In this document: positions 18,214-35,043 of the stretch, piece by piece
Layout: every line of letters starts with the position of its first letter
How positions within the stretch are numbered: position 1 is the first letter of the stretch
Source of the DNA: Halothiobacillus sp.
GTDB lineage: Bacteria; Pseudomonadota; Gammaproteobacteria; Halothiobacillales; Halothiobacillaceae
DNA length: 35,043 nucleotides
Direction of reading: 5' to 3'
Assembly (NCBI GenBank): GCA_016278265.1
Contig: JADQCE010000010.1
Span: 1-35,043 of the forward strand
The notes under the pieces: model-generated
Database searches by the model: none
Told to the model about the DNA's origin: nothing
What the model saw: only the letters and a program-made list of their open reading frames with translations
Program-made: the position numbers and the translations under genes

Positions 18214-18242
18214 TGTCTTCAAGATAACCAAAATGGAAGACA
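18214..18242 (-). promoter_or_regulatory. Inverted-repeat operator of the parDE promoter
   Basis: TGTCTTC (18214-18220) and GAAGACA (18236-18242) are a perfect 7-bp inverted repeat with a 15-bp spacer. The left arm also begins a smaller palindrome (TCTTCAAGA). On the minus strand TTGATC and TATCTT, about 16 bp apart, could be the -35 and -10 boxes, so bound ParD would block RNA polymerase. The site ends 27 bp upstream of the antitoxin start. Confidence 0.55.
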
Positions 18243-18284
18243 GATCAAGCCGTGCGCTACGCTATCGCTCCCAGCTTCTGGCCT

Positions 18285-18905: not shown

Positions 18906-20477
18906 GTGAGAGGCGGCCGGGCAAACAGCGAAGACGGTGGCGCGGGCGCTGAACAGGATGTCCCGGCCGTCGCCTACGTCCGGATGTCGACCGACCACCA
19001 GAAGTATTCGACCGAGAACCAGCTCGACGTCATCCGCAGCTATGCCGCCGCCCGCGGCTTGCAGATCCTGCGCGTGTTCGAGGATTCAGGGCGTTCCGGG
19101 CTGCGGCTCGACGGCCGGGAGGCGCTGCAGAACCTGATGGCCGAGGTCCAATCCGGCCAGGCCGATTTTAAGGCGATCCTCGTCTACGACGTCAGCCGCT
19201 GGGGCCGGTTTCAGGATGCCGACGAGGGCGCCTATCATGAGCACGTCTGCTCCCGCGCCGGCATCCGGGTCCATTACTGCGGCGAGCAGTTCGAGAACGA
19301 CGGCAGCATCGGCTCGAACCTGCTGAAGACCGTCAAGCGGGTGATGGCTGGCGAATACAGCCGGGAACTCTCGGTCAAGGTATTCGCGGGGCAATGCCGC
19401 CTCGTGGAACTCGGCTATCGTCAGGGCGGTGCCGCAGGATATGGGCTGCGGCGGGTGCTGATCGACGAGCACGGCCATCCGAAGGGCGAACTGTCTCGCG
19501 GCGAGCAGAAGAGCCTGCAGACCGACCGCGTGATCCTAGTGCCCGGCCCCGAGGAGGAGCAGCGGGTCGTTCAGCGCATTTACGAGATGTTCGTCAATGA
19601 GGGGCGCTCAGAGCGCGAGATCGCGGAGACCCTGAACGCCGAAGGACACTGCACGGATCTCGACCGACCTTGGACCCGCGCGACCGTCCATCAGGTGCTG
19701 ACCAACGAAAAATACATCGGGAACAATGTCTTCGCGAAGGTGTCCTTCAAGCTGAAGCAGCGCCGCGTAGTGAACCCGCGCGAGATGTGGATCCGAGCTG
19801 AGGGCGCCTATACCGCCATCGTCGAGCAGGCGCGGTTCCTGCGCGCCCGTGAGATCGTGGATGCCCGCAGCCGCCATTTCTCCAACGAAGAACTGCTCGA
19901 CGCCCTGCGCGCGATCCTCGAGCGGCAGGGCATGCTGTCGGGGCTGATCATCGACGAGGAGGACAATCTTCCGTCCTCCAGCGCCTATCGTAGCCGCTTC
20001 GGCAGCCTGCTGCGCGCCTACCGGTTGATTGGCTATGAGCCGGACCGGGACTACAGCTACATCGAGATCAATCGCGCTTTGCGGCAGGCCCACCCGCAGG
20101 TGGTGGCCGAGATCATCTCCGGAGTCACGCGCCACGGCGGGTGGGCCGCGCAGGACCCGGCGACAGACCTGGTTCGGGTCAACGACGAGTTCAACCTGTC
20201 CATCGTTCTCGCCCGCTGCACGGCGACAGCGGCCGGGGCGCTGCGCTGGCGCATCCGTCTCGATACCGGCCTTGTGCCCGACATCACCATCGCCGTGCGC
20301 ATGGATGAGGTGAACGAGGCGCCGCGCGATTACTACGTGCTGCCCAGTATCGACATGACATTCGGGAAACTGAAATTCGCCGAGCAGAACGGGCTCGCGC
20401 TGGATGCGTACCGGTTCGACACGCTCGATTTCTTCTACGCGCTCGCCTCGCGGGCCAGGATCGCGGAGGTGGCATGA
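18906..20477 (+). CDS. Serine recombinase with long unique C-terminus
   Basis: A 523-residue protein starting at GTG 18906 after GAGGAGA. The resolvase domain has Ser28 in AYVRMSTDHQ, EDSGRSGLRLDGR, then LVYDVSRWGRF with the catalytic Arg. The Recombinase domain follows (GYRQGGAAGYGLRR, TRATVHQVLTNEKYIGNNVF). The last ~190 residues (from FSNEELLDALRAILERQGML) lack the zinc-ribbon/coiled-coil of integrases and carry an alpha/beta domain I do not recognise. The stop overlaps the first of two RepB/ParB-like genes. This three-gene set recurs in alphaproteobacteria; it is presumably an integration or mobilisation unit. Confidence 0.9.
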   Translation: MRGGRANSEDGGAGAEQDVPAVAYVRMSTDHQKYSTENQLDVIRSYAAARGLQILRVFEDSGRSGLRLDGREALQNLMAEVQSGQADFKAILVYDVSRWGRFQDADEGAYHEHVCSRAGIRVHYCGEQFENDGSIGSNLLKTVKRVMAGEYSRELSVKVFAGQCRLVELGYRQGGAAGYGLRRVLIDEHGHPKGELSRGEQKSLQTDRVILVPGPEEEQRVVQRIYEMFVNEGRSEREIAETLNAEGHCTDLDRPWTRATVHQVLTNEKYIGNNVFAKVSFKLKQRRVVNPREMWIRAEGAYTAIVEQARFLRAREIVDARSRHFSNEELLDALRAILERQGMLSGLIIDEEDNLPSSSAYRSRFGSLLRAYRLIGYEPDRDYSYIEINRALRQAHPQVVAEIISGVTRHGGWAAQDPATDLVRVNDEFNLSIVLARCTATAAGALRWRIRLDTGLVPDITIAVRMDEVNEAPRDYYVLPSIDMTFGKLKFAEQNGLALDAYRFDTLDFFYALASRARIAEVA

Positions 20478-21385
20478 TGCCCGACGACATGGAGCCGACC
20501 AGCAAAAAGCAGGTGACCCTCGTCCCGACCGACAGGGTCCGGATCCTCAATCCCCGCGTCCGCAATCGGCGGACCTTCGAGGCGATGGTGGCCAACATCG
20601 CCCGCATCGGCCTGAAGCGCCCGATCACGGTAGCCCCGCGCGCCGGCACCGACCCGCAGGAATACGACCTGGTCTGTGGTCAGGGCCGTCTCGAGGCCTT
20701 CATCGAGCTCAAGCAGGACCGCATCCCCGCCATCGTGATCGAGGCCGACGAGAGCGACTGCCTCGTCATGAGCCTCGTCGAGAACTGCGCGCGGCGGCAG
20801 CACAACCCCATCGACCTAATGCGCGAGATCGGCATGCTCCGCCAGCGCGGCTATAACGACCGCCAGATCGGTGAGAAGATCGGCCTGTCCACCGAATACG
20901 TGAACATGATCGCAGGGCTGCTGGAAAAGGGCGAGGAACGTCTGGTCGCGGCCGTAGAGACCGGAGTTCTGCCCCTGAACCTCGCCATCCAGATCTCCAA
21001 GACAGATGCGAAGGGCGCGCAGAAGGCGCTAATGGACGCCTACACGCAGAACAAGCTGCGCGGTCGAAAGCTGGCGCTCGTGCGCCGCCTGATCCAGCAG
21101 CGCGAACTGCGCGGCCCGCAGATCCAGACCAACCCGCTCGGACGGCGGATTGGGAAACGCGCTCTGACGAGCGAAGGCCTCGTGCGGGCCTATCAGCAGG
21201 AAGCCACGCGCCAGAAACTGCTGATCAAGAAGGCTGAACTGACCCAAGGACGGCTGATGTTCGTGCGAGAGGCGTTCCGTAAGCTCTGCGCGGACGAGCA
21301 CTTCCTGACGTTGCTCAGGGCCGAGGGGCTTGAGACGATGCCCGCCGATCTCGCACGGTCGGTCACTGAAGGTGCCCCGGCATGA
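20474..21385 (+). CDS. RepB/ParB-like DNA-binding protein (first)
   Basis: A 303-residue protein; the ATG at 20474 overlaps the recombinase stop (a second ATG at 20477 is also possible). It has a ParB/Srx fold with CGQGRLEAF at 69-76 and the box-II-like ENCARRQHNP at 103-112. A HTH follows (YNDRQIGEKIGLSTEYVNMI), and then a RepB-type helical C-terminus. ParB-family proteins of this fold bind DNA and often hydrolyse CTP; that is not demonstrable here. There is no ParA partner, so classical partition is unlikely and a role in site-specific recombination or regulation is more likely. Confidence 0.85.
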   Translation: MMPDDMEPTSKKQVTLVPTDRVRILNPRVRNRRTFEAMVANIARIGLKRPITVAPRAGTDPQEYDLVCGQGRLEAFIELKQDRIPAIVIEADESDCLVMSLVENCARRQHNPIDLMREIGMLRQRGYNDRQIGEKIGLSTEYVNMIAGLLEKGEERLVAAVETGVLPLNLAIQISKTDAKGAQKALMDAYTQNKLRGRKLALVRRLIQQRELRGPQIQTNPLGRRIGKRALTSEGLVRAYQQEATRQKLLIKKAELTQGRLMFVREAFRKLCADEHFLTLLRAEGLETMPADLARSVTEGAPA

Positions 21386-22299
21386 AACGCGAGGCCAAGG
21401 AGACCCTGCAAAGCGTTAATCACGGGTTCGAGGACGACTGCGTAACCCTCCCCATCGACGCGATCCTGCCGTTGCGCGCCCTTGGCAAGAGCGCGAAATC
21501 CAGCCGGAAATATCGGCAGATCGTGGCCTCCATCGCCCAGATCGGGATTGTCGAGCCGCCCGTCGTGGTACGGAACCCCGACAAGTCTGCAACCTGGTTG
21601 CTGCTCGACGGCCACCTGCGGATCGAGGCGCTGAAGGACGCAGGCGCGAGCGAGGTGGAATGCTTGGTCTCCACGGACGATGAGGCCTTCACCTACAACC
21701 GCCAGGTCAGCCGTCTCGCGCCGATCCAGGAGCACAAGATGATCCGCAAGGCGATCGAGCGCGGCGTGCCGGAGGAAAAGATCGCGCTCGCGCTCGATCT
21801 CAACATGAGCAGCATCCGGCGCAAGGCCCGCCTGCTCGATGGCATCTGCGAGGAAGCAGTCGCGATTCTGAAGGACAAGCCCTGCACCAATGCTGTGTTC
21901 GACACATTGCGCAAGATGAAGACCATGCGCCAGATCGAGGCGGCCGAGTTGCTGGTCAACGCGAACAACTATTCCGTCGCCTACGTGAACGCCATTCTCG
22001 CAGGAACGCCGCAGGCGCAGCTGGTCGAGTCCTCCAAGCCAAAGAAGGTAAAGGGCATCACGCCCGAGGCCATGGCGCGGATGGAACAGGAACTGGCCCG
22101 CCTGCAGGAGGGCATCGCCTCGATCCAGGACACCTACGGCCAGGACCATCTGCACCTGACCGTGATCAAGGGCTACGTCGGCAAGCTGCTCGGGAATGCT
22201 CGGGTCGTGCGCTACCTGGCGCAGAACCATCCCGAGTTCCTCGGCGAGTTCCAGACAATCACCGAGATCATGCCGACCGAGGCCGCCAACGCCGAGTAG
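21382..22299 (+). CDS. RepB/ParB-like DNA-binding protein (second)
   Basis: A 305-residue paralogue-like partner, ATGA-coupled to the first. It has a ParB N-domain with LLLDGHLRIEAL around D76-G-H-L-R80, a HTH (GVPEEKIALALDLNMSSIRR) and a RepB C-terminal helical domain (MKTMRQIEAAELLVNANNYS). C-terminal residues 220-290 are probably coiled coil. Two different ParB-fold proteins directly behind a recombinase suggest a hetero-complex on the recombination or control site. The function is unknown. Confidence 0.85.
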   Translation: MKREAKETLQSVNHGFEDDCVTLPIDAILPLRALGKSAKSSRKYRQIVASIAQIGIVEPPVVVRNPDKSATWLLLDGHLRIEALKDAGASEVECLVSTDDEAFTYNRQVSRLAPIQEHKMIRKAIERGVPEEKIALALDLNMSSIRRKARLLDGICEEAVAILKDKPCTNAVFDTLRKMKTMRQIEAAELLVNANNYSVAYVNAILAGTPQAQLVESSKPKKVKGITPEAMARMEQELARLQEGIASIQDTYGQDHLHLTVIKGYVGKLLGNARVVRYLAQNHPEFLGEFQTITEIMPTEAANAE

Positions 22300-22762
22300 C
22301 CGTTCTCGGCGAATGAAGGGGACCCGGACCCGATAAGCGCGGGGACCGCGGGAGACGCCGGACTGTGGGCCGGATCGAGCGCGGCGGTGGGGATGGCGGC
22401 GAACCCGCTCGGAGCCCACCAGGCTGGCTCGAGTTTTCGCCAGCTGCGCGGCCGCGCCTGCGGCTGCGTCTCATTCGGGGCGTGTCGGAGGTCGGGCTAC
22501 TCCGGCACGCCCTTACGAAGCGAGAGCGTCATCCACCCACTGCAGCAAGAAGGTGTCAACGGTCATCGCCGCATCGCCCTAACAACGACGATGCCGCGAA
22601 CTTATCATCGCCAGTCGAGAAACGTGTAGACGCCTCGAGATGGCTTGCGCTCGCGGTAAGACCCATCCGTTCCACCATCGAGATGGTGCCAAGCTTTGAT
22701 CTTGAATCCTGAACTAAGCCTAGTAGCATGAACCCAATGTTTTCTGGAACTTAGAAGTTGTA
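22300..22762. other. 463-bp intergenic region before the DUF6361 operon
   Basis: No supported gene. GC falls sharply towards 22700. TTGAAT (22702-22707) and TAGCAT (22724-22729), 16 bp apart, are a weak candidate promoter for the DUF6361 operon. This is the likely junction between the recombinase/ParB unit and the helicase system, so it may hold an att site. Confidence 0.4.
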
Positions 22763-24004
22763 GTGGGGCTCAGAGCGATGCGCCAGTTAAGATTAACCGG
22801 CGCGCGGAATGCGCTGCAATTGGAGCCGGCGCTAGGCTGGACTTTTCTGTCCCGCGAGGCACTGTCCCGCGCTAAGGCTCAGATGGACGAAGAGTCCATG
22901 GGCGTGCGCGACGAGATTGGCTTTCTAACGATTCATCAGCGTTACGCCGACCGCTTTTTTCCGGGCACATCAGTGCTGCATACCCGAGCCCGCTATATTC
23001 TTTTTGTGCCTTGGCTGTTCGAGGATTTGGCAGGTTTGACAGGTCCTGCTGCCATGCGTGCCATGCGCGAACGGGAAAGGGAGCTCGCTGGGCGGCTCAA
23101 GGATGCTGGAGAATCCCAAGTGATCGGGGGGCGCGTCTTCCCCCAGCCTTCGAGCCAGCCGCCGTCAACGGTGTACTGGAATGCGCTCGCGGTCTGGGGC
23201 CTACTGCGTAGGCGCCTTGATGGGCGGACCATTTCCCGGGCGCAGGCGCATCGGCTGCTTAAAAGCGCTGGAACAGCAATGGATGACGACGGCCAACCGC
23301 TCGTCAGTTTCGATCCACCATTCGTGCCACTCCCTAAACGACCGGAGAACTGGAGAAGTGGGCATATCTCCCTTCAGCTTACGACTGAGGAAGCAACTTT
23401 CCTGCGCGAGCGGCTTGGCCAGTTGCGGAGCAATGGTGGACACGAGGCCTCCCTGCTCGCGCGATTGGTGCGGACTGAGACTGTGGCACCGGACGGAATG
23501 TGGGCCACTGAAACCCGGGAGATCGCCGGCCCCGACAAATCCGCACTTGCGCGCGCTCATCAGGCTGCACACCTCGCGGGTGTCGGCCGTGCTGTCTACG
23601 ATGCACTACTGGAACGGATTGTCGAGACCGATGACAAGCGGGAGACTTCGACTCGACATCGCGACCACCTTTCTGCCGTCGTCGAAGATCATGGTTCGCT
23701 TGCAGTAAAACTCGATGTAGGTGCTCTCGAGGCGGACATAGGCGCGCTGCCAACGAAATTGCGGGCTGTACTGACAACTACTAAGGATTGGGTGGCCTCG
23801 AAATCACAAAACCCCGCCCCACTCTTCGACGTCTATGCTGCGGCTGAGGCCCGAAAGGGCCCACGCGCACGCTTCGCGGTTACACCCCATGGTCGTGCCC
23901 GACGGCTCGAATGGTCGAGCGATGAACATGGTCTCGCGGGGCCGCTCCACTACAGGTGGGAGCAGGTCAGCATGCTTCTCAATGATCTTGCGGGCGCCCA
24001 ATGA
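22763..24004 (+). CDS. DUF6361 protein, first gene of candidate defence operon
   Basis: A 413-residue protein from GTG 22763; ATG 22778 is an alternative and neither start has a strong Shine-Dalgarno. The segment DEIGFLTIHQRYADRFFPGT, then SVLHTRARYILFVPWLFE (residues ~50-87), is the signature I associate with DUF6361. The rest is mostly helical with no Walker or nuclease motif. It overlaps the PLD gene by four bases. As the lead gene of a three-gene set it may be the recognition or adaptor component, which is inference. Confidence 0.8.
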   Translation: MGLRAMRQLRLTGARNALQLEPALGWTFLSREALSRAKAQMDEESMGVRDEIGFLTIHQRYADRFFPGTSVLHTRARYILFVPWLFEDLAGLTGPAAMRAMRERERELAGRLKDAGESQVIGGRVFPQPSSQPPSTVYWNALAVWGLLRRRLDGRTISRAQAHRLLKSAGTAMDDDGQPLVSFDPPFVPLPKRPENWRSGHISLQLTTEEATFLRERLGQLRSNGGHEASLLARLVRTETVAPDGMWATETREIAGPDKSALARAHQAAHLAGVGRAVYDALLERIVETDDKRETSTRHRDHLSAVVEDHGSLAVKLDVGALEADIGALPTKLRAVLTTTKDWVASKSQNPAPLFDVYAAAEARKGPRARFAVTPHGRARRLEWSSDEHGLAGPLHYRWEQVSMLLNDLAGAQ

Positions 24005-25854
24005 CCGGCGCAGTCGAAAACTGGGCGGCGCTCTCGTTTCTAGAGGGTTTACGTCCCGGTCCCGATGAAAGTGTCGAGTTGGCACTGCTGGCGTCCTATT
24101 CGGCAGACCTGGGATCAATCGGCGCTACTTTGCTTGCCCTGGCAGGCAAAGACACAGATGCGGGCCGAGGTAGTCCCTCAGATTTCGCTGATGCGGTCGA
24201 GCGACTGCGAGGGAAGGCACGGATTGTCATTCAGCGTGGCCGCCTAGCAAAGATGCGTCGGACACCGCGCATAGCAGCAGTGTTGGACCAATTCGTGCGC
24301 GAGGTCGATTTCGATGAAGCCACCCATAGCTGGCACCCCAAGGTAGCTCTCGTTCGAACACGCAACACGACTGGAGAGACTGGCTGGCGGCTTTGGATCG
24401 GAAGCCGAAATCTCACCGAAAACGTGAACCGCGACATCGGGTTACTGCTTGTCTCAGGCACCAAGGGCGGCGCACTGATCGCTGGTGCGGATGAGATGGC
24501 GCGTGCGCTGGCTGAAAGGGCCGAACTGAAGGGGCTGCGCCCGGCCTCGCTCGCGGCGACGATCGCAAAGGTAGCTTGGCGTTCTCCGGCGGGCGTAAGG
24601 GTTGAGCGCATTCGCTGGTCTCCCGGAACTGGAGATCAGCCCGTTCCAGTCCCGCCGCCGGATGTCGATGAAGTCATTGTGGTAAGTCCTTTTATAGACA
24701 AGCAATTTCTTGCTCGTCAGCTCGTAAAGGGTACAAAACAGTCTAGGCGTGTTTTGCTGACTACGGTACGTGAGATTGAGCGGATTGGTCCGTCACTGGC
24801 AGCATTCGACGACTTGCTGGCGCTGGATGCACCTGATTATCCCGTGGGTGATGCGGAGCTTGGATCCCGGTCCCCCGAGTGGCCATCCGATGTCACTTCG
24901 ACCGAGGATGAGGAAGAAGAGGTCGGACGCGGCCTCCATGCCAAATTGCTGTACATGCGAACTGGGCGCAAACGCACCCTGTGGCTGGGAAGCGCGAACG
25001 CGACCCTCCGGGCCTGGACTGGACGCAACGCTGAAGCCACGGCCGAACTGGTTGTCACCGAGCCGGTCGAAAGAGGGCTAAAGGCGCTGCTGGGGTCAGC
25101 CCGTCTGGTCGACGCGCCCAGCGGCGAGCATTTGCCCGACGCAGCGGTCTTGGAAGAGGAAGCGCTCGAACGGGCGCGCGCGCAGGTGGCGGCGCGATGG
25201 TCCGCTTCGCTCAGTATTGATGGCGAGGGGATACGTCTCAGCCATCGTTCCGATCTACATCCCGACGGGCCACATCCTGACGAAGCCGACATCCTGCTGG
25301 AAGTTGGCGCTCTTCACGGTGACCTTCTGATCTGGCCGCCACGACAAGCCGAGGTGCATCTTGGGCATGTCGTTCCATCTGACCGAAGCGAGCTCGTGCG
25401 CTTGCGTGTCAGCCGCAAGGACAAAGGTCTCTCATGGCTGCAACGAGCACCGGCGGAGCCGCCGTTTGGGGAGGATCGAGACCGTGCCGCGTTCGTGCGC
25501 TTCCTTGGTGCGCGAGGGTTTCTTCTTTGGGTGGCCGGATTGCTCGCAAATGACGATACACAGAGCGACGGCGACTGGACGATTGAGGAACCGCGGGAAC
25601 GGACGAGTGAAGAGGAGAAATCAACATTCGACTCCTCGTTGCCAACTTTAGAAGCGATGTTGGCGGCATGGGCCCGCGATCCGGTAAAGTTCCGCGAGAT
25701 TGAACGGCGGGTCTCTCAGTATCTGCCTGCGGTGCTCGAACAGGCCGAACAGGAAGATATACCAACCGCTGAAATGCTGAGGAGCTTCAAGGAGTTGTGG
25801 AGCAAGCTCCGAACTGGGCTGGGCTCCACCGAAGTAAAGGGTAGAAGCCGGTGA
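24001..25854 (+). CDS. Phospholipase-D-superfamily nuclease-like protein
   Basis: A 617-residue protein, ATGA-coupled to DUF6361. It has two HKD-type half-sites: H112-x-K114 with GSRN at 134-137, and H313-x-K315 (GLHAKLLYM) with GSAN at 330-333. Two HxK...GSxN motifs are the mark of PLD-superfamily enzymes; in bacterial defence these act on nucleic acids rather than lipids. Acidic stretches separate the two halves (TEDEEEEV at 301-308). There is no signal peptide or membrane segment, so it is cytosolic. It is followed by a GTGA-overlapping helicase, which implies a shared complex. Confidence 0.85.
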   Translation: MTGAVENWAALSFLEGLRPGPDESVELALLASYSADLGSIGATLLALAGKDTDAGRGSPSDFADAVERLRGKARIVIQRGRLAKMRRTPRIAAVLDQFVREVDFDEATHSWHPKVALVRTRNTTGETGWRLWIGSRNLTENVNRDIGLLLVSGTKGGALIAGADEMARALAERAELKGLRPASLAATIAKVAWRSPAGVRVERIRWSPGTGDQPVPVPPPDVDEVIVVSPFIDKQFLARQLVKGTKQSRRVLLTTVREIERIGPSLAAFDDLLALDAPDYPVGDAELGSRSPEWPSDVTSTEDEEEEVGRGLHAKLLYMRTGRKRTLWLGSANATLRAWTGRNAEATAELVVTEPVERGLKALLGSARLVDAPSGEHLPDAAVLEEEALERARAQVAARWSASLSIDGEGIRLSHRSDLHPDGPHPDEADILLEVGALHGDLLIWPPRQAEVHLGHVVPSDRSELVRLRVSRKDKGLSWLQRAPAEPPFGEDRDRAAFVRFLGARGFLLWVAGLLANDDTQSDGDWTIEEPRERTSEEEKSTFDSSLPTLEAMLAAWARDPVKFREIERRVSQYLPAVLEQAEQEDIPTAEMLRSFKELWSKLRTGLGSTEVKGRSR

Positions 25855-28800
25855 GCGCGCCCAAGCCGTTCCAGGAAGCTGCAGTCAATGCGGCGCTCGC
25901 GGCCTTCGGAGATCATAATGGGCGTCGGCGATTTCTGGTGGCGGATGAAGTCGGTCTCGGAAAAACAGTGGTAGCGAAGGAATTGGCTCGCCGCATGTCG
26001 GAGGATGGTAGGGCGCCCCTGGTCATTTACTATATAGCCAACGGTCATGCGGTTTCGCACCAAAACAAGAGCCGAGTTGTTGACTTCCTTATGGGTTATT
26101 CACGTAAAGCCGCTATCGCAACACCAGATCGGCTCTCGCTGATTGCAGTCGCGAGACGGCCGGACAGTCCCGTCCTTGTCTACGCACTGACTCCCGCAAC
26201 GTCCTTTCCCGGGGGGCGGGTACGTCTGACTGGAGGACGCAAGGAAGAACGAGCATTCCTGAAGGTTTTGCTCGAGCAGAGCTATCCTGCTTTTGCACGC
26301 AATCTCGATCCGGACATATTGCAGTTGAGCGCGCGTGGGTCATGGGAGTGGGCCATCAAGGATGCGGAGCACAAGTTCGCGGCGTCGCCGCCCCATTTGC
26401 GGAAGAGGTTTCGCGAGGCCCTTGCGGCTGAGTTCGGCGAGCCCGTCCGCACGATGCTCGATCTGGCTGTGTATGGCGACGCGGCCCGAAAAATTAAGCC
26501 GCTCAAGCCTACCACCTTCGTTGGCCGCCTCAGGCGCGCCCTTGCACTGGCAACGCTTCGCCATCAGCCGCCCGATTTAGTCATTCTCGATGAATTTCAG
26601 CGCTACCGGCAAATTCTTGACGAAAAGGACGCAGACCCGCTTCTTAAGGCTCTTCTGGAACCTGAACATTTGGTTGTCCCGCCGGCAGTCTTGCTGCTTA
26701 GCGCTACGCCATATCGGCTATTAAGCACACGATGGGAAGAGGCGCGCGGTGCGCTTGCTCACTCGCAACTTCTAGAACTGATCGAATTTCTTGCCGGCGC
26801 CGATGTTCGAGAACGTGCGAAGGTGCTTTTTGCCGACTTCGGTGACAAGTTACGTGATATTGCGGCGCATGCAGATGCGAGTAGTCCCGAGTTGGCGGCT
26901 GAAGTCGCCCAAGCGGCCAGACTAAGAGATGAGCTCCGCGGCCTTCTGACGCCAGTCATGTCGCGCACTGAGCGGGACAGTGTGGCGTCGGCCGATCCAC
27001 TCGCCGCGACGCAATTTCTCGATGCGGACCCGTTGCCAGAGGATTTTCGGGTCTATCGACATCTCGTCGAGAGCTTTGCAGAGCAGATGCGCTACGAGGC
27101 GCTGCCATATTGGTCTTCGGTTCCGATGCCCGCCCAATCGCTTGGTCCACGCTATGCAGCATGGAAGCGCGCCAAATTCAGGGCAGCACCGAAGCTCACT
27201 AAGATGACCCGGGAGCGCCGCAACAAACTCAACGCGCCTACGACATGGCCTGACGCGAAGCTTCGCGCTCTGAACAGCGTGGCTTCTCCCAAGGAGCTTT
27301 CGCTGCCGTGGGTCGCGCCGTCACTACCTTGGTGGCCACTATCCGGCGGCTGGAAGGGTTCGGGAGCCGATCCCAAGCTCCTGATGTTCAGCCGCTTTCG
27401 CGCAACGCCCCCTAGCGTGGCGGCGCTTCTAAGCTTTGGCGTCGAGGCGCACTGTCTTCCCAAGAATCACGGCGGGTACGAGAAGGCTTACAAGCGCCGT
27501 CGTTTCAAGTTGGGGGCCGAGCCGGGGCCAGTGATGGCCGCATTCCATCCGTCGCCATGGCTAATCTGGAACACGAACCCGCTTGCGAAAGCCGGAGCGA
27601 CGCTCGGCGCTGTACGCAAAGAGGTTCGGCGACAAATTCTCGCCGCACTCCCCAAGGGCATCATTGAACGCGACACCGTGAAGGCCCGCAGGCGGCACAG
27701 ATCGATTGCCCGGATTCTGTCGTCGATAGAACGGACAGCAGGTGTTGTCGAACAATCCGCCTCAGGCTGGGGCAGCGCAATCGGTGATGATCGTGCCGCG
27801 AAGTCTGCAGTTCGAAAATGGCGCCAGGCGCAGCCGATTGAGCGGCTTTCACCTGTCGAGCTTTCTGATCTTGTGGACTATGCGATCGGGGCGCCTGGCG
27901 TCGCGCTAGGACGGGCATTGCTACGGCATGATCCGTCAATCCTTGATGCTACACGCTATCCCGAGTTGGTCCAGCTCTGTTGGCAGGGATTGCGCGCCTA
28001 CCTCGATAACCCGGTGATCCTGTCATCGCTGCCGGGGAAGAGCGCAGTCGAGCAAGTCATGGGCGCCGTGGTCGATGGCGGCTTCGAAAGCGTCCTGGAC
28101 GAGCATTTCTGGTTGCGATCGCAAAATCTCCAAGAGGGCGCAGCTGGTCTCGCCAAGGACCTTCAATCGTCGCTCGGACTACGCGCAGGCACCTTTAGCT
28201 TTCATGCAATAGGAGGTGCGCCACATAAGATCCCGGTGCGCTGCCACGTCGCCGTGCCGTTCGGCGACGCCGAGACCCAACCCGCCGTCAAGGTGGACGG
28301 CGGCGTGGGGCAAGCCGCTCCTGTCCGACCCGATGAGGTTCGGCGCAGCTTCAACACACCCTTCTGGCCACATGTGCTGGCAACAACATCGGTTGGTCAG
28401 GAGGGTCTCGATTTTCATCCCTGGTGCGCGCACGTGGTTCATTGGGATCTTTCGTCAAACCCTCTCGATATCGAACAGCGAGAGGGTCGCATCCAACGCT
28501 ATGCTGGTTTAGCCGTCAGACGCAGACTCGCGGTAGATTTGCGTGGTGACGTGCTGAAAGATCGTACTGCGGCACACCATTCCCCGTGGCATTGCGTAGA
28601 ATTTCACGCTGAGCGTCTGGTCGATGCGAGCGGCCTTCGCCCCTGGTGGGTGTACGATGGTGCCGAAATTCGTCGTCACGTCTTCGAGCGCCCGTTTGGA
28701 CGGGACATCGTCCGCTTCGCCCAACTTCGAGAACAGCGCATGATCTATAGGTTGGCTCTCGGACAACCCAATCAGGAGGACTTCATCGACGTGCTTTCAC

Positions 28801-28925
28801 GAGGTGGGGCGACTACCCGCGCTTTGCTGCAACCGTTAATTCTTGACCTGTCTGCGATGGGGCTTCGGCAACGGCCTATGCCATGTGGCAATGAGCTAGA
28901 ATGCTCTTGGTCATGCAAGAAATGA
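25851..28925 (+). CDS. SF2/SNF2-like helicase, third gene of candidate defence operon
   Basis: A 1024-residue protein from a GTG at 25851 overlapping the PLD stop (GTGA). Motif I is DEVGLGKT at 32-39, motif II DEFQ at 247-250, motif III SATP at 284-287. In the second lobe a motif V-like TSVGQEGLDFH lies near 847 and motif VI EQREGRIQRY near 876. The lobes are separated by ~550 residues of insert, much longer than in Swi2/Snf2 remodelers. The DEFQ box (not DEAH) and QxxGRxxR end fit the HepA/DISARM-type SF2 group. It probably moves on dsDNA and delivers the PLD nuclease. It stops 8 bp before the oppositely oriented spanin gene. Confidence 0.85.
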   Translation: MSAPKPFQEAAVNAALAAFGDHNGRRRFLVADEVGLGKTVVAKELARRMSEDGRAPLVIYYIANGHAVSHQNKSRVVDFLMGYSRKAAIATPDRLSLIAVARRPDSPVLVYALTPATSFPGGRVRLTGGRKEERAFLKVLLEQSYPAFARNLDPDILQLSARGSWEWAIKDAEHKFAASPPHLRKRFREALAAEFGEPVRTMLDLAVYGDAARKIKPLKPTTFVGRLRRALALATLRHQPPDLVILDEFQRYRQILDEKDADPLLKALLEPEHLVVPPAVLLLSATPYRLLSTRWEEARGALAHSQLLELIEFLAGADVRERAKVLFADFGDKLRDIAAHADASSPELAAEVAQAARLRDELRGLLTPVMSRTERDSVASADPLAATQFLDADPLPEDFRVYRHLVESFAEQMRYEALPYWSSVPMPAQSLGPRYAAWKRAKFRAAPKLTKMTRERRNKLNAPTTWPDAKLRALNSVASPKELSLPWVAPSLPWWPLSGGWKGSGADPKLLMFSRFRATPPSVAALLSFGVEAHCLPKNHGGYEKAYKRRRFKLGAEPGPVMAAFHPSPWLIWNTNPLAKAGATLGAVRKEVRRQILAALPKGIIERDTVKARRRHRSIARILSSIERTAGVVEQSASGWGSAIGDDRAAKSAVRKWRQAQPIERLSPVELSDLVDYAIGAPGVALGRALLRHDPSILDATRYPELVQLCWQGLRAYLDNPVILSSLPGKSAVEQVMGAVVDGGFESVLDEHFWLRSQNLQEGAAGLAKDLQSSLGLRAGTFSFHAIGGAPHKIPVRCHVAVPFGDAETQPAVKVDGGVGQAAPVRPDEVRRSFNTPFWPHVLATTSVGQEGLDFHPWCAHVVHWDLSSNPLDIEQREGRIQRYAGLAVRRRLAVDLRGDVLKDRTAAHHSPWHCVEFHAERLVDASGLRPWWVYDGAEIRRHVFERPFGRDIVRFAQLREQRMIYRLALGQPNQEDFIDVLSRGGATTRALLQPLILDLSAMGLRQRPMPCGNELECSWSCKK

Positions 28926-28933
28926 GCTTGCGA

Positions 28934-29188: not shown

Positions 29189-29219
29189 TGGTTTCCTCCA
29201 ATGTTTCGAGACGTTCGGC
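29097..29219 (-). pseudogene. Inner spanin (Rz-type), 3' fragment
   Basis: This is the distal part of the gene cut by the IS66 element. Removing the element and one 8-bp duplication joins it in frame to the 31687-31829 fragment. The restored protein has 85 residues; this part encodes LETLEETNDVQRRMLDAAAR and then the end RLRNGRF, a charged coiled-coil periplasmic domain. It overlaps the o-spanin gene in another frame. Confidence 0.8.
29212..29219. repeat. Target-site duplication, left copy (CGTTCGGC)
   Basis: Identical to 31687-31694 and immediately outside the IS66 left end; 8 bp is the usual IS66 duplication length. Confidence 0.92.
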
Positions 29220-29235
29220 GTAAGCGGTGTCCCGA

Positions 29236-30774
29236 TCACACAGCGGCGGCGTAATTCCACGGGAGCAGATCGTCGATCTGGCTCTGCTTGTGACCGTTGA
29301 CGATTGCGGTGAGCGTGGCGGTCAGCCAAGCGTGGGGATCGACGCGGTTCATTTTGCAGGTTTCGATCAGCGAGGCGATGACGGCCCAGTTTTCGGCTCC
29401 GGCGTCGTGCCCTGCGAAGAGGGCGTTCTTGCGGTTCAGTGCGATGGGTCGGATCGTGCGCTCGGCGGTGTTGTTGTCGATCTCGATGCGGCCGTCGGTC
29501 AGGAAGCGGCCAAGGCCGTCGCGGTGTTTGGCGATGTAGGCGAGCGCCTCGCCCAAGGGTGACTTTGCCGAGGCGCGGGCACGGTGATGCGCCAGCCAAT
29601 CGTCGAGGCGGGCGAGGATCGCGGCGGAGCGGTCTTGCCTCACGGCCAGTCGGGTGGCGGGGTCGTTGCCACGGATGTCGGCCTCGATGGTGTAGAGATC
29701 GCGAATGAGGGCCACGCCTTCCTCGGCAATAGGCGCGGGTCCGGTGCGGGTGATCTCGATCAGTTTGCGACGCGCGTGCGCCCAGCAATGCGCGAGCTGG
29801 ATGCCCGGACCGATCCGGTCCGCTGCGATCAGACGGTTGTATCCGGCATAGCCGTCGACCTGCAGGATGCCGCCGAAGCCCTGCAGTATCCGTTCAGCAT
29901 GTTGCCCGCCCCGACCGGGGGCATAGGTGAAGACCACGCCCGGTGGTGCCGTGCCGCCCCAGGGTCGATCATCGCGGGCCGCGGCCCAGAAGTATCCGGT
30001 CTTGGTCTTTCTGGCACCCGGATCAAGGACCGGCGCGCGGGTCTCGTCCATGAAGAGCTTGGTGGACCGCTTCAGGTCGGCCATCAGCGCATCGAGGACG
30101 GGTCGGAGTTCGAAGGCGGCGCGGCCCACCCAATCGGCGAGGGTAGAGCGGTCGAGATCGACGCCTTGGCGGCTGTAGATCTGGGCCTGCCGGTAGAGCG
30201 GGAGATGGTCGGCATATTTGCTGACCAGAACATGGGCGACAGTCGCCTCGGTCGGCATGCCTCCCGGGATCAGCCGCGCAGGGGCAGCGGCCTGCACGAC
30301 ACCATCAGTGCAGGAGCGGCAGGCATACTTCGGACGGCGGGTCACGATGACACGGAACTGGGCTGGCACGATGTCGAGCCGTTCCGAGACGTCCTCGCCG
30401 ATGCAATGCAGACAGCCGCCACAGGCGCAGGTCAGGCTGTCCGGCTCGATGATCTCGTCGATGCGCGGCAGGTGCTTCGGCAGCGACCCACGGTTGGCGG
30501 CACGCGGTTTGGCGGAGCGCTTGGCTGCCCGATCCTCGGCATCCTCTTCGGCATGGATCACTGCCATGGCCGTTTCGAGGTCTTCCAGCGCCAGTTCGAA
30601 CTGGTCCGGATCGCTCTTCTCCGATTTCCGACCGAAGACCGCCTGTTTGAAGGCCGCGACCAGCTTCTCCAGCCGTTCGATCCGCTCGTCCTTGCGCCGG
30701 TCGCGCGCGTCCGCAGCGATCAGCATCGCCTTCAGCGCAGCAATTTCTTCAAGCAGATCAGCGGTCTTCGGCAT
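29236..30774 (-). CDS. tnpC: IS66 transposase TnpC
   Basis: A 512-residue protein with the IS66 order: N-terminal coiled coil (IAALKAMLIAADARDRRKDE), an RKSE basic motif, a zinc-binding segment (CACGGCLHCIG and CRSC), then the DDE catalytic core with LFMDETR, LQVDGYAGY and EIDNNTAERTIRP. It catalyses transposition. Its stop codon lies inside the left terminal repeat. Confidence 0.96.
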   Translation of the reverse strand: MPKTADLLEEIAALKAMLIAADARDRRKDERIERLEKLVAAFKQAVFGRKSEKSDPDQFELALEDLETAMAVIHAEEDAEDRAAKRSAKPRAANRGSLPKHLPRIDEIIEPDSLTCACGGCLHCIGEDVSERLDIVPAQFRVIVTRRPKYACRSCTDGVVQAAAPARLIPGGMPTEATVAHVLVSKYADHLPLYRQAQIYSRQGVDLDRSTLADWVGRAAFELRPVLDALMADLKRSTKLFMDETRAPVLDPGARKTKTGYFWAAARDDRPWGGTAPPGVVFTYAPGRGGQHAERILQGFGGILQVDGYAGYNRLIAADRIGPGIQLAHCWAHARRKLIEITRTGPAPIAEEGVALIRDLYTIEADIRGNDPATRLAVRQDRSAAILARLDDWLAHHRARASAKSPLGEALAYIAKHRDGLGRFLTDGRIEIDNNTAERTIRPIALNRKNALFAGHDAGAENWAVIASLIETCKMNRVDPHAWLTATLTAIVNGHKQSQIDDLLPWNYAAAV

Positions 30775-30853
30775 GGCAGGTTTTTACCAAACCGCCATGG
30801 GCTGCGCCTCTGGAAAGAGCCGGCTGAGTCATCCTGCCGCAGCCTTGAACGGC

Positions 30854-31207
30854 TCATTCCACGGCTTCGGGGGCCTTCGCCTCGATGGCCCGAACCCGCC
30901 GCCAATCGAGCCCCGCAAACAGCGCCTCGAACTGCGCATGGTTCATCAGCATCAGCCCGTCCTTCACAGCGGGCCAGGTAAAGCTGTGCTCTTCCAGCCG
31001 CTTGTAGGCCATCACCAGGCCAGTGCCGTCCCAGTAGAGCAGCTTCAACCGGTCCGCCTTCCTGGCCCGGAACACAAAGACCGTTCCGGTGAAAGGGTCC
31101 TTGCGCAACTCGTTCTTCACCATCGCGGCAAGGCTGTCGTGGCCCTTGCGGAAGTCGATAGGCTTTGTCGCCACCATGATCCGCACCCGGTTCGACGGGA
31201 AGATCAC
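30854..31207 (-). CDS. tnpB: IS66 accessory protein TnpB
   Basis: A 117-residue protein of the IS66 Orf2 family. It has VRIMVATKPIDFRKGHDSLA, then FVFRARKADRLKLLYWDGTG, the usual 'FR-KADRLKLL-WDG-G' signature. The GTG start overlaps the tnpA stop (GTGA). This is the IS66 TnpB and not the OmegaRNA-guided nuclease of IS200/IS605. Confidence 0.95.
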   Translation of the reverse strand: MIFPSNRVRIMVATKPIDFRKGHDSLAAMVKNELRKDPFTGTVFVFRARKADRLKLLYWDGTGLVMAYKRLEEHSFTWPAVKDGLMLMNHAQFEALFAGLDWRRVRAIEAKAPEAVE

Positions 31208-31578
31208 GGGCAGGCCTGCAGAGCCATGACCAGTTCCGCGACCCGTGCCGCAGGCGTGGAAGCATCCAGTCGCACCGTCACAGGGCCAATGATCAGATCA
31301 ATCGACGCAGTCGGGTCCGGCGTCTCGACCGACTGTGCCAGGGCCATGGGTGCTGCGAACTCCGCGCCCGCAATCTCGGGCACTACCAGCTTGCCATTCC
31401 GCGCCAGCGTCCGCCACGCAGACAGGTGGTTCGCCTTCAACGAATGGCGGCGAGCCACTTCGTTTACCGAGACACCCGCAACAAGCGTCTCCGCCACGAT
31501 CCGACCCTTCGCCTCATCCGACCACCGCCGTTTGGCAACTGGAGCCGCCAAGAGCTCCACAAACCCAACGGCCTCCAT
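31204..31578 (-). CDS. tnpA: IS66 accessory protein TnpA
   Basis: A 124-residue protein from the ATG at 31578 with GGGAGCG upstream; a longer reading to 31629 adds residues without a ribosome site. It is an IS3/IS66-type HTH: KRRWSDEAKGRIVAETLVAG and SVNEVARRHSLKANHLSAWR. It should bind the element ends. Confidence 0.92.
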   Translation of the reverse strand: MEAVGFVELLAAPVAKRRWSDEAKGRIVAETLVAGVSVNEVARRHSLKANHLSAWRTLARNGKLVVPEIAGAEFAAPMALAQSVETPDPTASIDLIIGPVTVRLDASTPAARVAELVMALQACP

Positions 31579-31682
31579 ATCGCGCTCCCGATGGACTCCC
31601 AATGAAACCTCCCGTGCAAATCTCCACACGAGGCCGCATCGCAGCTTACGGATTCAGCAGGAAGGTGGGGTCAAGACAGCGC

Positions 31683-31829
31683 TTACCGTTCGGCGAGGCG
31701 GCCCGTGCGTTCACCGGAACGCCGGAGTGCGAACAGGAACAGGAGCACTGTGAGCGCGATGGCGCCGTAGCGGAGAGCCGTCCGGGCCCACGGTTTGGTG
31801 GCGAACCCAGCGAGGAGCGCACCAATCAT
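31683..31829 (-). pseudogene. Inner spanin (Rz-type), 5' fragment
   Basis: Starts at the ATG at 31829, which overlaps the endolysin stop (ATGA). It encodes a single transmembrane segment (YGAIALTVLLFLFAL) and the start of a coiled coil. The frame hits a TAA in the IS66 end (31683-31685), leaving 48 of the original 85 residues. The periplasmic domain needed to bind the o-spanin is lost. See the 29097-29219 fragment. Confidence 0.82.
31687..31694. repeat. Target-site duplication, right copy (CGTTCGGC)
   Basis: Matches 29212-29219 exactly and abuts the right end of the IS66 element. Confidence 0.92.
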
Positions 31830-32500
31830 CGGCGGCCCACCTTCCAGTCGTCGATGCGGGCGTAGATCGTGACCGCTATGCCGCTGAGCGCGACGGCGAT
31901 GAATACCCAGCGGAGCGTGTCGAGATACGGGACGAACGGCAGAATAGCGGATTGCGTCTCGGCCAGGACGCTCTGCGCAACCTCGACCCCGGCTGCGCCC
32001 AGCGTCGCCACACCAGCCGCCCCGCCACCCTTCATGGTGCGGCTCTGCGCCAAGACCTCGCGCGCGGGCGGCGTCTCCGCAGCGAAGGCAGTCGCCCGGA
32101 CCGGGAACCGCTCGCCCCACTGCCGCGCGGGCCCGAGATCGACATGGATGAACCCCGAGCGCGGGTAGAAGCCGAAGCCGAGGAACCCGACCTCCCTTGC
32201 CGCCGCCTCGAAGGCCGCCGGGTCGTGGTTCGCCATGGCAATGTCGAACGCCGCACCGTCGAGGTGCTTGGAGCGGGTGGCGCCCCCGACGGCACGGTTG
32301 TGCTCTGGGCTCCGGTAGGCCGAGCGGACGATCAGCGGCTTGCCCAGCCGGTCGCGCAGCGCCTGCAGCTTGTCGAGCGCAGGCTCGTTGATCAGCAGCC
32401 TGCCGGTGCCTCGGCAGGCGATCTCGGCCGGGCTGAAATTCGGCCAGTGCCAGGTGCTCTCCGGTACATCACGCCAATAGCGGTGGAAGGTCGTGGTCAT
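31826..32500 (-). CDS. M15-type peptidase endolysin with C-terminal membrane anchor
   Basis: A 224-residue protein with GGAGG six bases before the ATG at 32500. The M15/YcbK-like peptidase domain (residues ~15-125) has zinc ligands H79 and D86 in SKHLDGAAFD and H119/D121 in GFIHVDLG. A Gly/Ala-rich linker (~158-182) leads to a transmembrane helix (residues ~198-214, WVFIAVALSGIAVTIYA). It should cleave peptide cross-bridges of peptidoglycan. The anchor means it may be exported and held in the inner membrane, like signal-arrest or holin-fused endolysins. The spanin gene follows with ATGA overlap. Confidence 0.88.
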   Translation of the reverse strand: MTTTFHRYWRDVPESTWHWPNFSPAEIACRGTGRLLINEPALDKLQALRDRLGKPLIVRSAYRSPEHNRAVGGATRSKHLDGAAFDIAMANHDPAAFEAAAREVGFLGFGFYPRSGFIHVDLGPARQWGERFPVRATAFAAETPPAREVLAQSRTMKGGGAAGVATLGAAGVEVAQSVLAETQSAILPFVPYLDTLRWVFIAVALSGIAVTIYARIDDWKVGRR

Positions 32501-32516
32501 GGGGTCCTCCAGAAAC

Positions 32517-32540
32517 GAAAAACCCGCCTCGAGGGCGGGT
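32517..32540 (-). terminator. Rho-independent terminator downstream of DUF6127
   Basis: On the minus strand ACCCGCC pairs with GGCGGGT (stem 32522-32528 with 32534-32540, 5-nt loop) and is followed by a run of T. It lies between the DUF6127 gene and the endolysin, so lysis genes may need read-through or their own promoter. Confidence 0.75.
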
Positions 32541-32573
32541 CATTGCGGGCTGATGAATGGGGATGGGGCGCGA

Positions 32574-32861
32574 CTACGGGCTGCCGCCGAAGATCTTCAG
32601 CTTGATGGCGATGCCCGCCAGCAGCGCGAGCATGACGCCAGTGGTGATCATGCGGACGGCGGTCTGCATGGCGGTGCGGCGCACGAGCCGGATGCAGTCG
32701 ACGAGGGAGCGCAGATCGCGGATGTCGAGCGCGGCCTCGTCGCCGTCGAGGCCGACATCGGCGAGCGCGCGCTTCGCGCCTTCCTCGGCCGCCCGGGTCA
32801 GGATCGCCTCGAACTCGGCGTCGGGCATGCGCACGAAGCCCTCGGATCGGGGTGGGTTCAT
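32574..32861 (-). CDS. DUF6127 small membrane protein
   Basis: A 95-residue protein with AAGGAGG before the ATG at 32861. The N-terminal half is an amphipathic helix (FEAILTRAAEEGAKRALADV) and DIRDLRSLVDCIRLVRRT. One transmembrane helix lies at ~70-88 (VRMITTGVMLALLAGIAIKL). The sequence resembles DUF6127 proteins next to tail genes in Rhodobacterales prophages. A holin-like or lysis-control role is possible because the endolysin lies next to it. Confidence 0.82.
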   Translation of the reverse strand: MNPPRSEGFVRMPDAEFEAILTRAAEEGAKRALADVGLDGDEAALDIRDLRSLVDCIRLVRRTAMQTAVRMITTGVMLALLAGIAIKLKIFGGSP

Positions 32862-32880
32862 CGGAGCCTCCTTTCGCCGC

Positions 32881-33957
32881 TCAGCCGATCTTGCAGCCCC
32901 AGAAGGACGTGTGATCGGCGGCGAAATAGCCGTCGGCGACGCGGAAATACCCCTGCAGCTCGACGGTATCGCCCGCAGTCAGCGGGACCATGGTCTGCAG
33001 CCAGATCGCGGTGGCGAGCGAGACATGGGTGGCGGAGATTTCGCCGAGGGAGCCGCGGATTTCGGTGGTGCCGTTCAGCACCAGCCGCCCGCGCATGCGG
33101 GCGGTGGCGCTGGCGTTCACCTTGTAGAGCAGCGTCGCGCCGAAGAGGTAGGTGCCGTCCACCGGCGCCACGAAGTGGTTGTTCGCGGCGTCGAACGCTC
33201 CCTGTTCGTTGTAGTCGGTGTTGTTGAGGCCGATCTTCGTCCAGGTCCCGACGCCAACATAGTTGTCGAAGTTGGTGTACGCCTTGAAGCGCGGCAGCTG
33301 GGGCTGGTCGACGATGCCGGTGGCGTTGTCGACGCTCAGCCCGTCGAAGAAGGTGCTGCCGTCGGCCGAGACCGCAAGCCGGAACCTGTCCGAGCCGAAC
33401 AGCCCGACCAGCGCCTTGGTCACGAATCCGGTCTGCAGGGTCAGCCCGAGATCATCGCCCGCGGCCTCCTTGTTCATCGTGTAGAACAGATTGCCGGTCC
33501 CACCCTCGGCCACGGTCTTCGCCGTCCAGAGCGCGGCGTTCAGCTTGGCCGAGAACGGGTTCGACGCATCCGCGGTGGTCCCGAGTCCCAGCAGCGCGAG
33601 GTTCTGCAGCGCGGCCGGGGTGGTTCCGATCCAGCCCGCGCCGTCATAGACGAGCAGCAGGCCCTCGTCCTCCACCCACGCCCGCCAGCCCGTGCGCGGC
33701 GGCAGGCGGAACCAGGCGCCATCGGTCCAGAGCGCGACGTTCAGGTCCCAGCCCGCCCAGTCGCCCGTCGCGCCCGAGCCGACGATGTATCGGTCGCCGT
33801 CGGCAGGGCTCGCAGGGGCTGCTGCCAGGTCCCGATCGATAACAGAGAGCTGGACGAGCCCGTCGAGGATCCGCAGCGCCTCGTTGTGGGTAACGTGCTT
33901 CTGGGCCTGCGCCGCGAGGATGTAGGGCAGCAGAAGATGGGTCGTGGCGTCGGACAT
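32881..33957 (-). CDS. DUF2793 tail protein with C1q-like C-terminus
   Basis: A 358-residue protein. The N-terminal ~115 residues match DUF2793 (HLLLPYILAAQAQKHVTHNE, ADGDRYIVGSGATGDWAG). The C-terminal ~130 residues (GTWTKIGLNNTDYNEQGAFD, FVAPVDGTYLFGATLLYKV, TVELQGYF) look like a C1q/TNF-type beta sandwich, which often forms trimeric tips in phage fibres. Putative surface-binding or fibre protein, attached through the DUF2793 part. It starts 10 bp from the end of the tail protein upstream. Confidence 0.88.
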   Translation of the reverse strand: MSDATTHLLLPYILAAQAQKHVTHNEALRILDGLVQLSVIDRDLAAAPASPADGDRYIVGSGATGDWAGWDLNVALWTDGAWFRLPPRTGWRAWVEDEGLLLVYDGAGWIGTTPAALQNLALLGLGTTADASNPFSAKLNAALWTAKTVAEGGTGNLFYTMNKEAAGDDLGLTLQTGFVTKALVGLFGSDRFRLAVSADGSTFFDGLSVDNATGIVDQPQLPRFKAYTNFDNYVGVGTWTKIGLNNTDYNEQGAFDAANNHFVAPVDGTYLFGATLLYKVNASATARMRGRLVLNGTTEIRGSLGEISATHVSLATAIWLQTMVPLTAGDTVELQGYFRVADGYFAADHTSFWGCKIG

Positions 33958-33967: not shown

Positions 33968-35043
33968 TCAGAACGTGAGGGTGATGGTCTTGGGCGCGCC
34001 CCGCCCGACGAGGGCGGAGAGCTGGAAGATGCGGACGGTGAGGCTGTCGCCGGGACCGAGCGGCGCGCCCCAATCGGCGGTCTGGTGGGCGGCCGTGTAG
34101 ACCGCGCTGGTGGTGGCGGTGCTCAGCACCCGCATCACGGTCACGCCATCAAGGATCTCGACCTCGTAGGCTTCCAGTTCCTCCGCCAGCGGCACCTCCA
34201 GCCCGCCCCAGCTGTCGGCGGAGAGCGCGCGGGATCGTCGCGTCCAGCGGATGGTCAGATCGCCGGGCGTACGCGGCGTGCGCCACGGCTGCTCGACATG
34301 GGCGATGGCGAACGGCCGCAGGCCGGCGCCCGCGGGCGTGAAGGCCTGCGCAACATAGGTCTCGTCGCTGACCGGGCGGCTCGCCGGGCCGATGCGCCAG
34401 TTCCATGGCAGCCCGAGATCGGCCTCGGCGATCGGCAGTGACGCGAGCGCGGTGTCCAGAACCACTATCCGCACGCCTGCGGGCGCCGGGTTGCCCATTG
34501 CGCCTTCGGTCCCACGCTGGCCGCGCAGGAGACGGGTCAGGCGATAGCGGCCGGGCGCCAGCAATTCGGCCGCGCCCGCCTGCACGATCTCCCAGACGCC
34601 GGGCGCGCTCTCGATGGCGAGCGCATTAGCGCCGCCGAACAGCGTCAGGTCGGTCACGCTCTCCAGCGTGCCGGTGAGCAGATCGACCACCAGCGCATTG
34701 CCGAGGTCGAAGCGCGACGTCGGCCCCGCGAAGAAGTCGGAGACCAGAGCCCCGATCCGGGCGCGGCCGCCGAACGTCGTCTGCAACTCGAAGCCATCGG
34801 TCGAGGGGCTGCGGAACACCGCCATCTCGCCGGGCCAGGGAACCGCGTGCGCCGCAATGAGGGGCCGATGCGCGGGCTGGTCCTCGGTCAGCTGCGGCAG
34901 ATCCATCAGCACCGCATCCGGCGCGCCGAACACCACGGCGCGCGTCAGCGACGCCGCGCGGGGATCGCCGGGCGGCAGGTCGTAGGTCGCGCGGTCCTGG
35001 CGGACCGCCTCGATGCCGCGCGCCTCGGCGTCGGCGATGGAGA
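33968..35043 (-). CDS. GTA/phage tail host-specificity (megatron-like) protein, C-terminal part
   Basis: The frame is open to the window edge, so the N-terminus is missing (about 358 codons seen). The visible part has beta-rich repeats (RFDLGNALVVDLLTGTLESV, GRYRLTRLLRGQRGTEGAMG, TIRWTRRSRALSADSWGGLE) and ends VRIFQLSALVGRGAPKTITL. The 'RLLRGQRGTE' and 'TRRSRALSADSW' patterns recall the large C-terminal domain of the gene-transfer-agent tail protein and its phage relatives, which contact the host surface. An in-frame GTG at 34936 is not the real start. Confidence 0.85.
   Translation of the reverse strand, partial: SIADAEARGIEAVRQDRATYDLPPGDPRAASLTRAVVFGAPDAVLMDLPQLTEDQPAHRPLIAAHAVPWPGEMAVFRSPSTDGFELQTTFGGRARIGALVSDFFAGPTSRFDLGNALVVDLLTGTLESVTDLTLFGGANALAIESAPGVWEIVQAGAAELLAPGRYRLTRLLRGQRGTEGAMGNPAPAGVRIVVLDTALASLPIAEADLGLPWNWRIGPASRPVSDETYVAQAFTPAGAGLRPFAIAHVEQPWRTPRTPGDLTIRWTRRSRALSADSWGGLEVPLAEELEAYEVEILDGVTVMRVLSTATTSAVYTAAHQTADWGAPLGPGDSLTVRIFQLSALVGRGAPKTITLTF

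Follow-up and report, generated by a model that had tools for sequence, protein, structure and literature searches.

The window analysed here, an entire contig (C17) of 35,043 nucleotides from Halothiobacillus sp., carries at positions 22763 to 28925 three open reading frames (ORFs) of 413, 617 and 1024 residues, all on the + strand (22763-24004, 24001-25854 and 25851-28925) and each overlapping the next by four bases (ATGA at 24001, GTGA at 25851). The three proteins, a DUF6361 protein, a PLD-superfamily protein and an SF2 helicase, almost certainly represent, judging from their sequences, an intact, divergent-lineage copy of the defence system Azaca (ZacABC). The genes are as follows.

22763..24004, + strand: zacA, DUF6361 protein of 413 amino acids (PADLOC ZacA; PF19888; 18 residues invariant in 35 loci)
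24001..25854, + strand: zacB, two-HKD PLD-superfamily protein of 617 amino acids (PADLOC ZacB; ATGA overlap with zacA)
25851..28925, + strand: zacC, SNF2-type SF2 helicase of 1024 amino acids (PADLOC ZacC; GTGA overlap with zacB)

The start codon of the first ORF is uncertain, the first ~20 residues differing among relatives, and a promoter and terminator scan of positions 22250-29300 returned sites no more numerous than in shuffled sequences. The names were assigned with the profile models of PADLOC-DB 2.0.0, which the three proteins match over nearly their full lengths: ZacA at 8.2e-91 (303 bits; residues 22-411 on profile positions 3-392 of 396), ZacB at 1.7e-117 (residues 9-608 on positions 6-582 of 586) and ZacC at 1.1e-263 (residues 1-1003 on positions 10-1017 of 1019). 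Pfam independently finds DUF6361 in ZacA (61 bits, cut-off 25) and Helicase_C in ZacC (24.8 bits, cut-off 23.5). A match to the ZacA model, a ZacB match with its catalytic sites intact and a ZacC match with its motifs intact are thus found in three adjacent genes of one operon, which its sequence places as an additional divergent member of a defence system that is itself already known. A sequence-only reading of this stretch had proposed an undescribed anti-phage system, distinct from DISARM and lying in an island between recombinases and prophage genes. The gene layout, the domain assignments, the island and the separation from DISARM all stand; the novelty does not, because all three proteins already bear names in PADLOC and the trio is Azaca.

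Azaca was reportedly first described, phage assays included, by Millman et al. in 2022. 'Azaca (ZacC)' appears in the methods sections of PMC12278908 and of the preprint PMC10925250, the latter assigning ZacC to SF2_SNF2, while a table in PMC10952713 assigns Azaca a PLD-like domain and credits Millman et al. 2022; that table and a 2026 review, in its accessible portion, both catalogue Azaca as an anti-phage system. Searches under the names ZacABC, DUF6361 and Zac system returned nothing usable, because the published name is Azaca: DUF6361 does not occur in the accessible parts of PMC12458937, PMC10250203, PMC10853773 and PMC12839542, nor 'Zac' in those of PMC12458937, PMC10250203 and PMC8565338, and the PLD/helicase passage of PMC11672841, in the excerpt available, concerns Mokosh.

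The catalytic sites of ZacB and ZacC map as follows.

24334..24411, + strand: first PLD site of ZacB, H112-K114...GSRN 134-137 (H112, K114 and N137 invariant in 35/35 loci)
24937..25005, + strand: second PLD site of ZacB, H313-K315...GSANAT 330-335 (H313, K315, G330, S331 and N333 invariant in 35/35 loci)
25944..25967, + strand: ZacC motif I (Walker A), DEVGLGKT 32-39 (invariant in 35/35 loci)
26589..26600, + strand: ZacC motif II, DEFQ 247-250 (invariant in 35/35 loci)
26700..26708, + strand: ZacC motif III, SAT 284-286 (invariant in 35/35 loci)
28383..28499, + strand: ZacC motifs V and VI, residues 845-883, in Helicase_C (core residues invariant in 35/35 loci, a few varying)

Motif V reads TSVGQEGLDFH (846-856) and motif VI QREGRIQR (876-883). 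The ~550-residue insert attributed to the helicase by the sequence-only reading is about right in size, with ~560 residues separating motif III from motif V, but the second RecA lobe already begins within this stretch.

Searched at the protein level, genome contigs yielded 31 related loci: 22 with the whole trio in order, three cut by contig ends (L008, L009 and L018) and six broken remnants, in one of which (L021) a truncated ZacA reads on into an unrelated ORF. Alignments of each protein were built for 35 loci; L002 and L003, which nearly duplicate L001, were excluded, as were the three cut loci, L051 with its split ZacC, and the remnants. Down to ~21-24% identity, none of the 35 departs from H112, K114, N137, H313, K315 and N333 in ZacB, nor from the core of motifs I, II, III, V and VI in ZacC; variation is seen at ZacB G134 and at a few positions in motifs V and VI of ZacC, and ZacB S135 is kept in at least 94% of the loci. 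The 18 invariant residues of ZacA, among them D50, E51, G53, F66-G68, S70, R75, Y78, W139, W247 and W343, suggest that this protein, too, is needed. A four-base start/stop overlap recurs at 30 of 40 zacA/zacB and 34 of 39 zacB/zacC junctions, the window included. Given the invariance across the 35 loci, the motifs of the operon are not due to chance. Pairwise distances of the three proteins are correlated at r 0.995-0.996 over these loci and at 0.975-0.979 over the 24 loci of the window's lineage, so that ZacA, ZacB and ZacC diverge in step and evolve as a unit, as for one machine.

The trio stays together in the whole genomes and plasmids sampled as well. Seven of 369 class genomes, the window's own included, carry a match and all seven also carry ZacB and ZacC (in G272 ZacC is in two pieces); of five matching genomes among 398 of the phylum, two were already in the class sample and the three new ones hold the full trio. 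Forty-three plasmid records have a match, and the trio was present in each of the six that were opened, even though the ZacC of a R. etli plasmid is missing from the gene table and was recovered by tblastn, and the ZacA of a B. elkanii plasmid has a shortened annotation followed by a small ORF. In viral contigs, 11 pattern matches to ZacA included no true relative, and a single weak match was found among 50,697 phage records. Intact Azaca is thus kept as a three-gene unit and is carried by prophage-like elements and plasmids.

The window's copy is 98-99% identical to that of Pararhodobacter (L001), 50-86% identical to the other aligned copies from the contig search, to Janthinobacterium and Mesorhizobium plasmid copies and to G567, and 35-43% identical to the Bradyrhizobium elkanii copy, whereas identity falls to 21-31% for a group that holds Cronobacter and, from the same genus as the window, the genome G005. 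No relative of the window's ZacC was found at 1e-50 in 56 other genomes, including 10 from that genus. The near-identity to Pararhodobacter, the distance from G005 and the absence from these 56 genomes suggest a recent arrival. By record title the 31 loci are mostly from Alphaproteobacteria, with two from Pseudomonas and a remnant from Paraburkholderia; further titles name metagenome-assembled genomes (MAGs) labelled Nitrosovibrio, Granulicella and Bryobacterales, labels that can be binning errors, and the Nitrosovibrio contig L009 and the Rhodospirillales MAG contig L008 look like the same sequence.

Around the operon, recombinases lie upstream and phage tail-type genes downstream, and the trio is cargo of a prophage-like element built on a serine recombinase and a ParB-ParB pair.

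18906..20477, + strand: serine recombinase/integrase of 523 amino acids, a mobility gene (Pfam Resolvase and Recombinase; phrog_95 integrase)
20474..21385, + strand: ParB1, RepB family, with a four-base ATGA overlap with the recombinase (PF07506, PF02195)
21382..22299, + strand: ParB2, RepB family, with a four-base ATGA overlap with ParB1 (PF07506, 7e-58)
29212..31694, no strand: IS66-family insertion (29220-31686) separating zacC from the phage genes; its 8-base target duplication, CGTTCGGC, lies at 29212 and 31687
31826..33957, - strand: genes of the neighbouring prophage for an M15 peptidase resembling phage endolysins and for DUF2793 products resembling tail fibres
33968..34936, - strand: tail-type gene with an Rcc01698_C domain, like those of gene transfer agents (GTA) (Pfam, 7e-29)

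Positions 17355-29220 of the window are 97.3% identical to Pararhodobacter DNA, and stretches of 11.6 and 11.9 kb in Palleronia and Paracoccus are 92.6% and 91.8% identical to the window. The IS66 assignment follows the annotation of matching plasmid DNA; the alignment with L002 stops at 29220 and restarts at 31687. Toward its end the window matches 23 phage records at 60-80% DNA identity; 20 of these are Rhodobacter phages, and the records listed have 'GTA TIM-barrel' proteins. L001 has a related M15 gene downstream, as does L002 in shortened form; none was found in L003. The far end of the element is not visible because the window is the whole contig, and a repeat search of positions 17200-29300 gave no clear att sites. 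An IS481 transposase (16151-17125) and the IS66 insertion flank the Azaca-carrying stretch. Elsewhere in the window, a further serine recombinase lies at 6769-8235 and a second possible defence operon at 9184-14672, consisting of a 773-residue protein (weak HATPase match), a 588-residue AAA_5 protein with McrB (5.8e-10) and midasin (1.4e-12) among its relatives in the PDB, and a 411-residue protein for which no Pfam, PHROG or PDB match was found.

The recombinase-ParB-ParB module (18906-22299) is more unusual than the Azaca copy and carries varied, often defence-related, cargo. Both ParB genes are present in 62 of 80 recombinase loci from viral contigs (L076-L155); among the 18 loci lacking the second, 16 have less than 1.3 kb of sequence beyond the recombinase, and ParB1 is partial in L110 and absent from L152. 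At 1e-60 the recombinase was found in only three of 274 class genomes, the window's own included and one in part, and G190 carries both ParB genes besides the recombinase. The slot after ParB2 (22300-29220 in the window) holds Azaca here, nothing in L034, WYL, HKD-Snf2 and type III methyltransferase genes in L035, a sulfate permease and Usp in L036, and PDC-S06 in L038. Altogether 69 co-directional cargo ORFs occur in 31 of the 51 loci with enough DNA; the 52 non-redundant ones scanned matched 274 PADLOC families, a count inflated by redundant models, and type I restriction-modification subunits head the matches listed.

As to the neighbourhood of Azaca itself, 142 ORFs of at least 150 amino acids lie within 7.5 kb of 19 loci; they were reduced to 113, of which 110 were scanned after exclusion of three L012 ORFs at the recombinase-ParB cassette. 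These matched 248 PADLOC families at 1e-10, against 39 for 110 of the 173 genes from 17 arbitrary class-genome stretches, one of which held CRISPR type III genes. Both counts, like the cargo count, are inflated by redundant models such as those for GajB (UvrD-like) and type I specificity subunits, the families considered are the first 25 of each list, and we regard the comparison as supportive and not as a test. Six of ten hand-picked neighbours scanned singly gave good matches (PDC-S01, AbiEii, AbiEi, REase_I, mad3 in part, and REase_MTase_IIG). A role of the trio in defence, as the sequence-only reading had supposed, is very likely: the system is a named one, and its relatives adjoin AbiE, type I and type IIG restriction-modification and other PADLOC families. 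The commonest neighbour family is present in at most 7 of the 19 loci, and no methyltransferase family is a constant partner.

A protein family of 657-748 residues, ParB/Spo0J-like in the one member tested, is also found near 7 of the 19 loci; in L004 (5041-7158 and 7335-8540), L010 and L016 it lies directly beside a 400-residue protein without a PDB match, an arrangement suggestive of plasmid- or ICE-like (integrative and conjugative element) carriers.

The mechanism that we favour, at roughly even odds, couples DNA cleavage to translocation and gives ZacA the part of a sensor or specificity factor; its biochemical steps and the role of ZacA are all inferred. The SNF2-type ATPase ZacC would track along invading double-stranded DNA; the two HKD half-sites of ZacB would form one PLD active centre, cutting DNA once ZacC has engaged it; and ZacA, predicted to be mostly helical, would either provide recognition or hold the complex together. 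The model is favoured because ZacC has RapA relatives, both HKD half-sites of ZacB are kept and no neighbour family is constant. RapA chains, which are SNF2-type translocases, are the only PDB relatives found with the ZacC profile (E 1e-4, residues 841-884, 44 residues); the ZacA and ZacB profiles gave chance-level matches to PDB sequences. Self would be told from non-self by DNA structure (ends, replication intermediates or infection-specific complexes) and not by a methyl mark of the system's own. Recognition by structure is probable because the operon has no methyltransferase, and a dedicated mark is unlikely because no neighbour family is found in more than 7 of the 19 loci.

Somewhat less probable, yet a serious contender, is abortive infection, in which ZacC would restrain ZacB on intact DNA until phage-induced damage or intermediates free the nuclease onto host and phage DNA alike. 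The published account of HamAB, in the part available to us, describes a nuclease constrained by its sensor helicase; Azaca shares this helicase-plus-nuclease logic, and its operon holds no modification gene to protect the host. ZacC, however, is of the SNF2 type and HamB of the Ski2 type, and a third protein is present in 7 of 7 genomes checked. None of the data presented here separates direct restriction from suicide, and the choice between them leaves the assignment to Azaca untouched. That the system is aimed chiefly at plasmids or rival mobile elements, and not at phages, is improbable: the operon does itself sit on a prophage-like element and on plasmids predicted to be conjugative, and a large ParB-type protein, identified in one of seven cases, lies near 7 of the 19 loci, but Azaca is catalogued as an anti-phage system and defence cargo is common on mobile elements.

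Several observations weigh against an intact Azaca copy that acts by translocation-coupled cleavage. In Pfam, ZacB reaches only a sub-threshold match to PLDc_2 (21.9 bits, cut-off 27). The window's proteins score lower on the Zac models than those of Cronobacter (876 against 1186 bits for ZacC), so that the specificity of the window's system may differ. Six of the 31 loci (L021, L026-L028, L030 and L031) are decayed, as expected of an accessory, disposable unit. Control genes match PADLOC families too; of the ten picked neighbours two gave weak matches and two none; and unrelated methyltransferases may stand near single loci, type IIG and type I systems being present at some. The structural model of ZacA is weak (mean pLDDT 67, residues 1-57 below 50), and a fold search with it gave no informative match (best Foldseek E-value 1.0, best VIA-align Z 4.3), so that ZacA may still adopt a known fold; the model of ZacC is poor (pLDDT 52) and unsuited to fold search.

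More speculatively, the window's copy and its relatives at 50-99% identity might be a subtype of Azaca in their own right, following a recognition rule not shared with other members. Its spread among bacteria would owe something to prophage-like elements that carry it as cargo and in which a conserved cassette of serine recombinase and two ParB genes would serve generally to exchange one defence system for another, while the ParB pair controls integration, excision or maintenance of the element; we hold this proposal, taken as a whole, to be doubtful. The search for an undescribed system at this locus is closed, the copy being ordinary in kind. What the 35-locus alignment adds is a list of residues worth mutating, including the 18 invariant positions of ZacA; the 2026 review, as far as its text was available, lists Azaca among the systems whose mechanism is unknown, and the residue list therefore makes that question directly testable.

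Among known systems, DISARM (components DrmA, DrmB, DrmC, DrmD, DrmMI and DrmMII) likewise pairs an SNF2 helicase with a PLD protein, its nuclease, but DrmA, DrmB (DUF1998) and a methyltransferase are lacking among the three proteins, which show only motif-level matches to DrmA and DrmD (NCBIfam DrmD on ZacC, 50 bits against a cut-off of 610). Dpd (7-deazaguanine DNA modification) also uses a PLD nuclease according to the passage available of PMC12458937, and its helicase DpdE, the one component examined, scores 46 bits on ZacC against a cut-off of 500. A reading of the trio as a cut-down relative of DISARM or Dpd is scarcely credible: the region of its SNF2 motifs does give ZacC matches to the DrmD and DpdE models, and PLD nucleases serve there too, but the best-scoring stretches span ~40-60 residues whereas the Zac models cover the three proteins almost fully, and no DUF1998 or methyltransferase domain is found in them. 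PDC-M27 has a PLD-related M27B and a helicase-related M27C, which ZacC matches at 4e-17; the best stretch is confined to 58 residues at motifs V-VI, against 61-90 for the remaining two models, and ZacB matches M27B at an E-value of 0.011; on such model coverage, membership was rejected here as for DISARM and Dpd. The single-chain PLD-helicase proteins (PADLOC PLD_Helicase, C3a139 'HKD+Snf2' and NF042964) combine, by their names, a PLD nuclease with an SNF2-type helicase, but in one protein instead of three genes, and PLD_Helicase and NF042964 have only motif-level similarity to ZacC; C3a139 sits in the same cargo slot, in L035. Hachiman (HamAB) is, in the part of its description available, likewise a helicase with a nuclease, one of the two formerly of unknown function, although its two genes and Ski2-type helicase limit the likeness to how the systems may work. 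Azaca offers the same three proteins in the same order and on the same strand, with near full-length profile matches and an SNF2-class helicase; the window's lineage differs in being only 23-29% identical to the Cronobacter pESA3 proteins and in its lower model scores.

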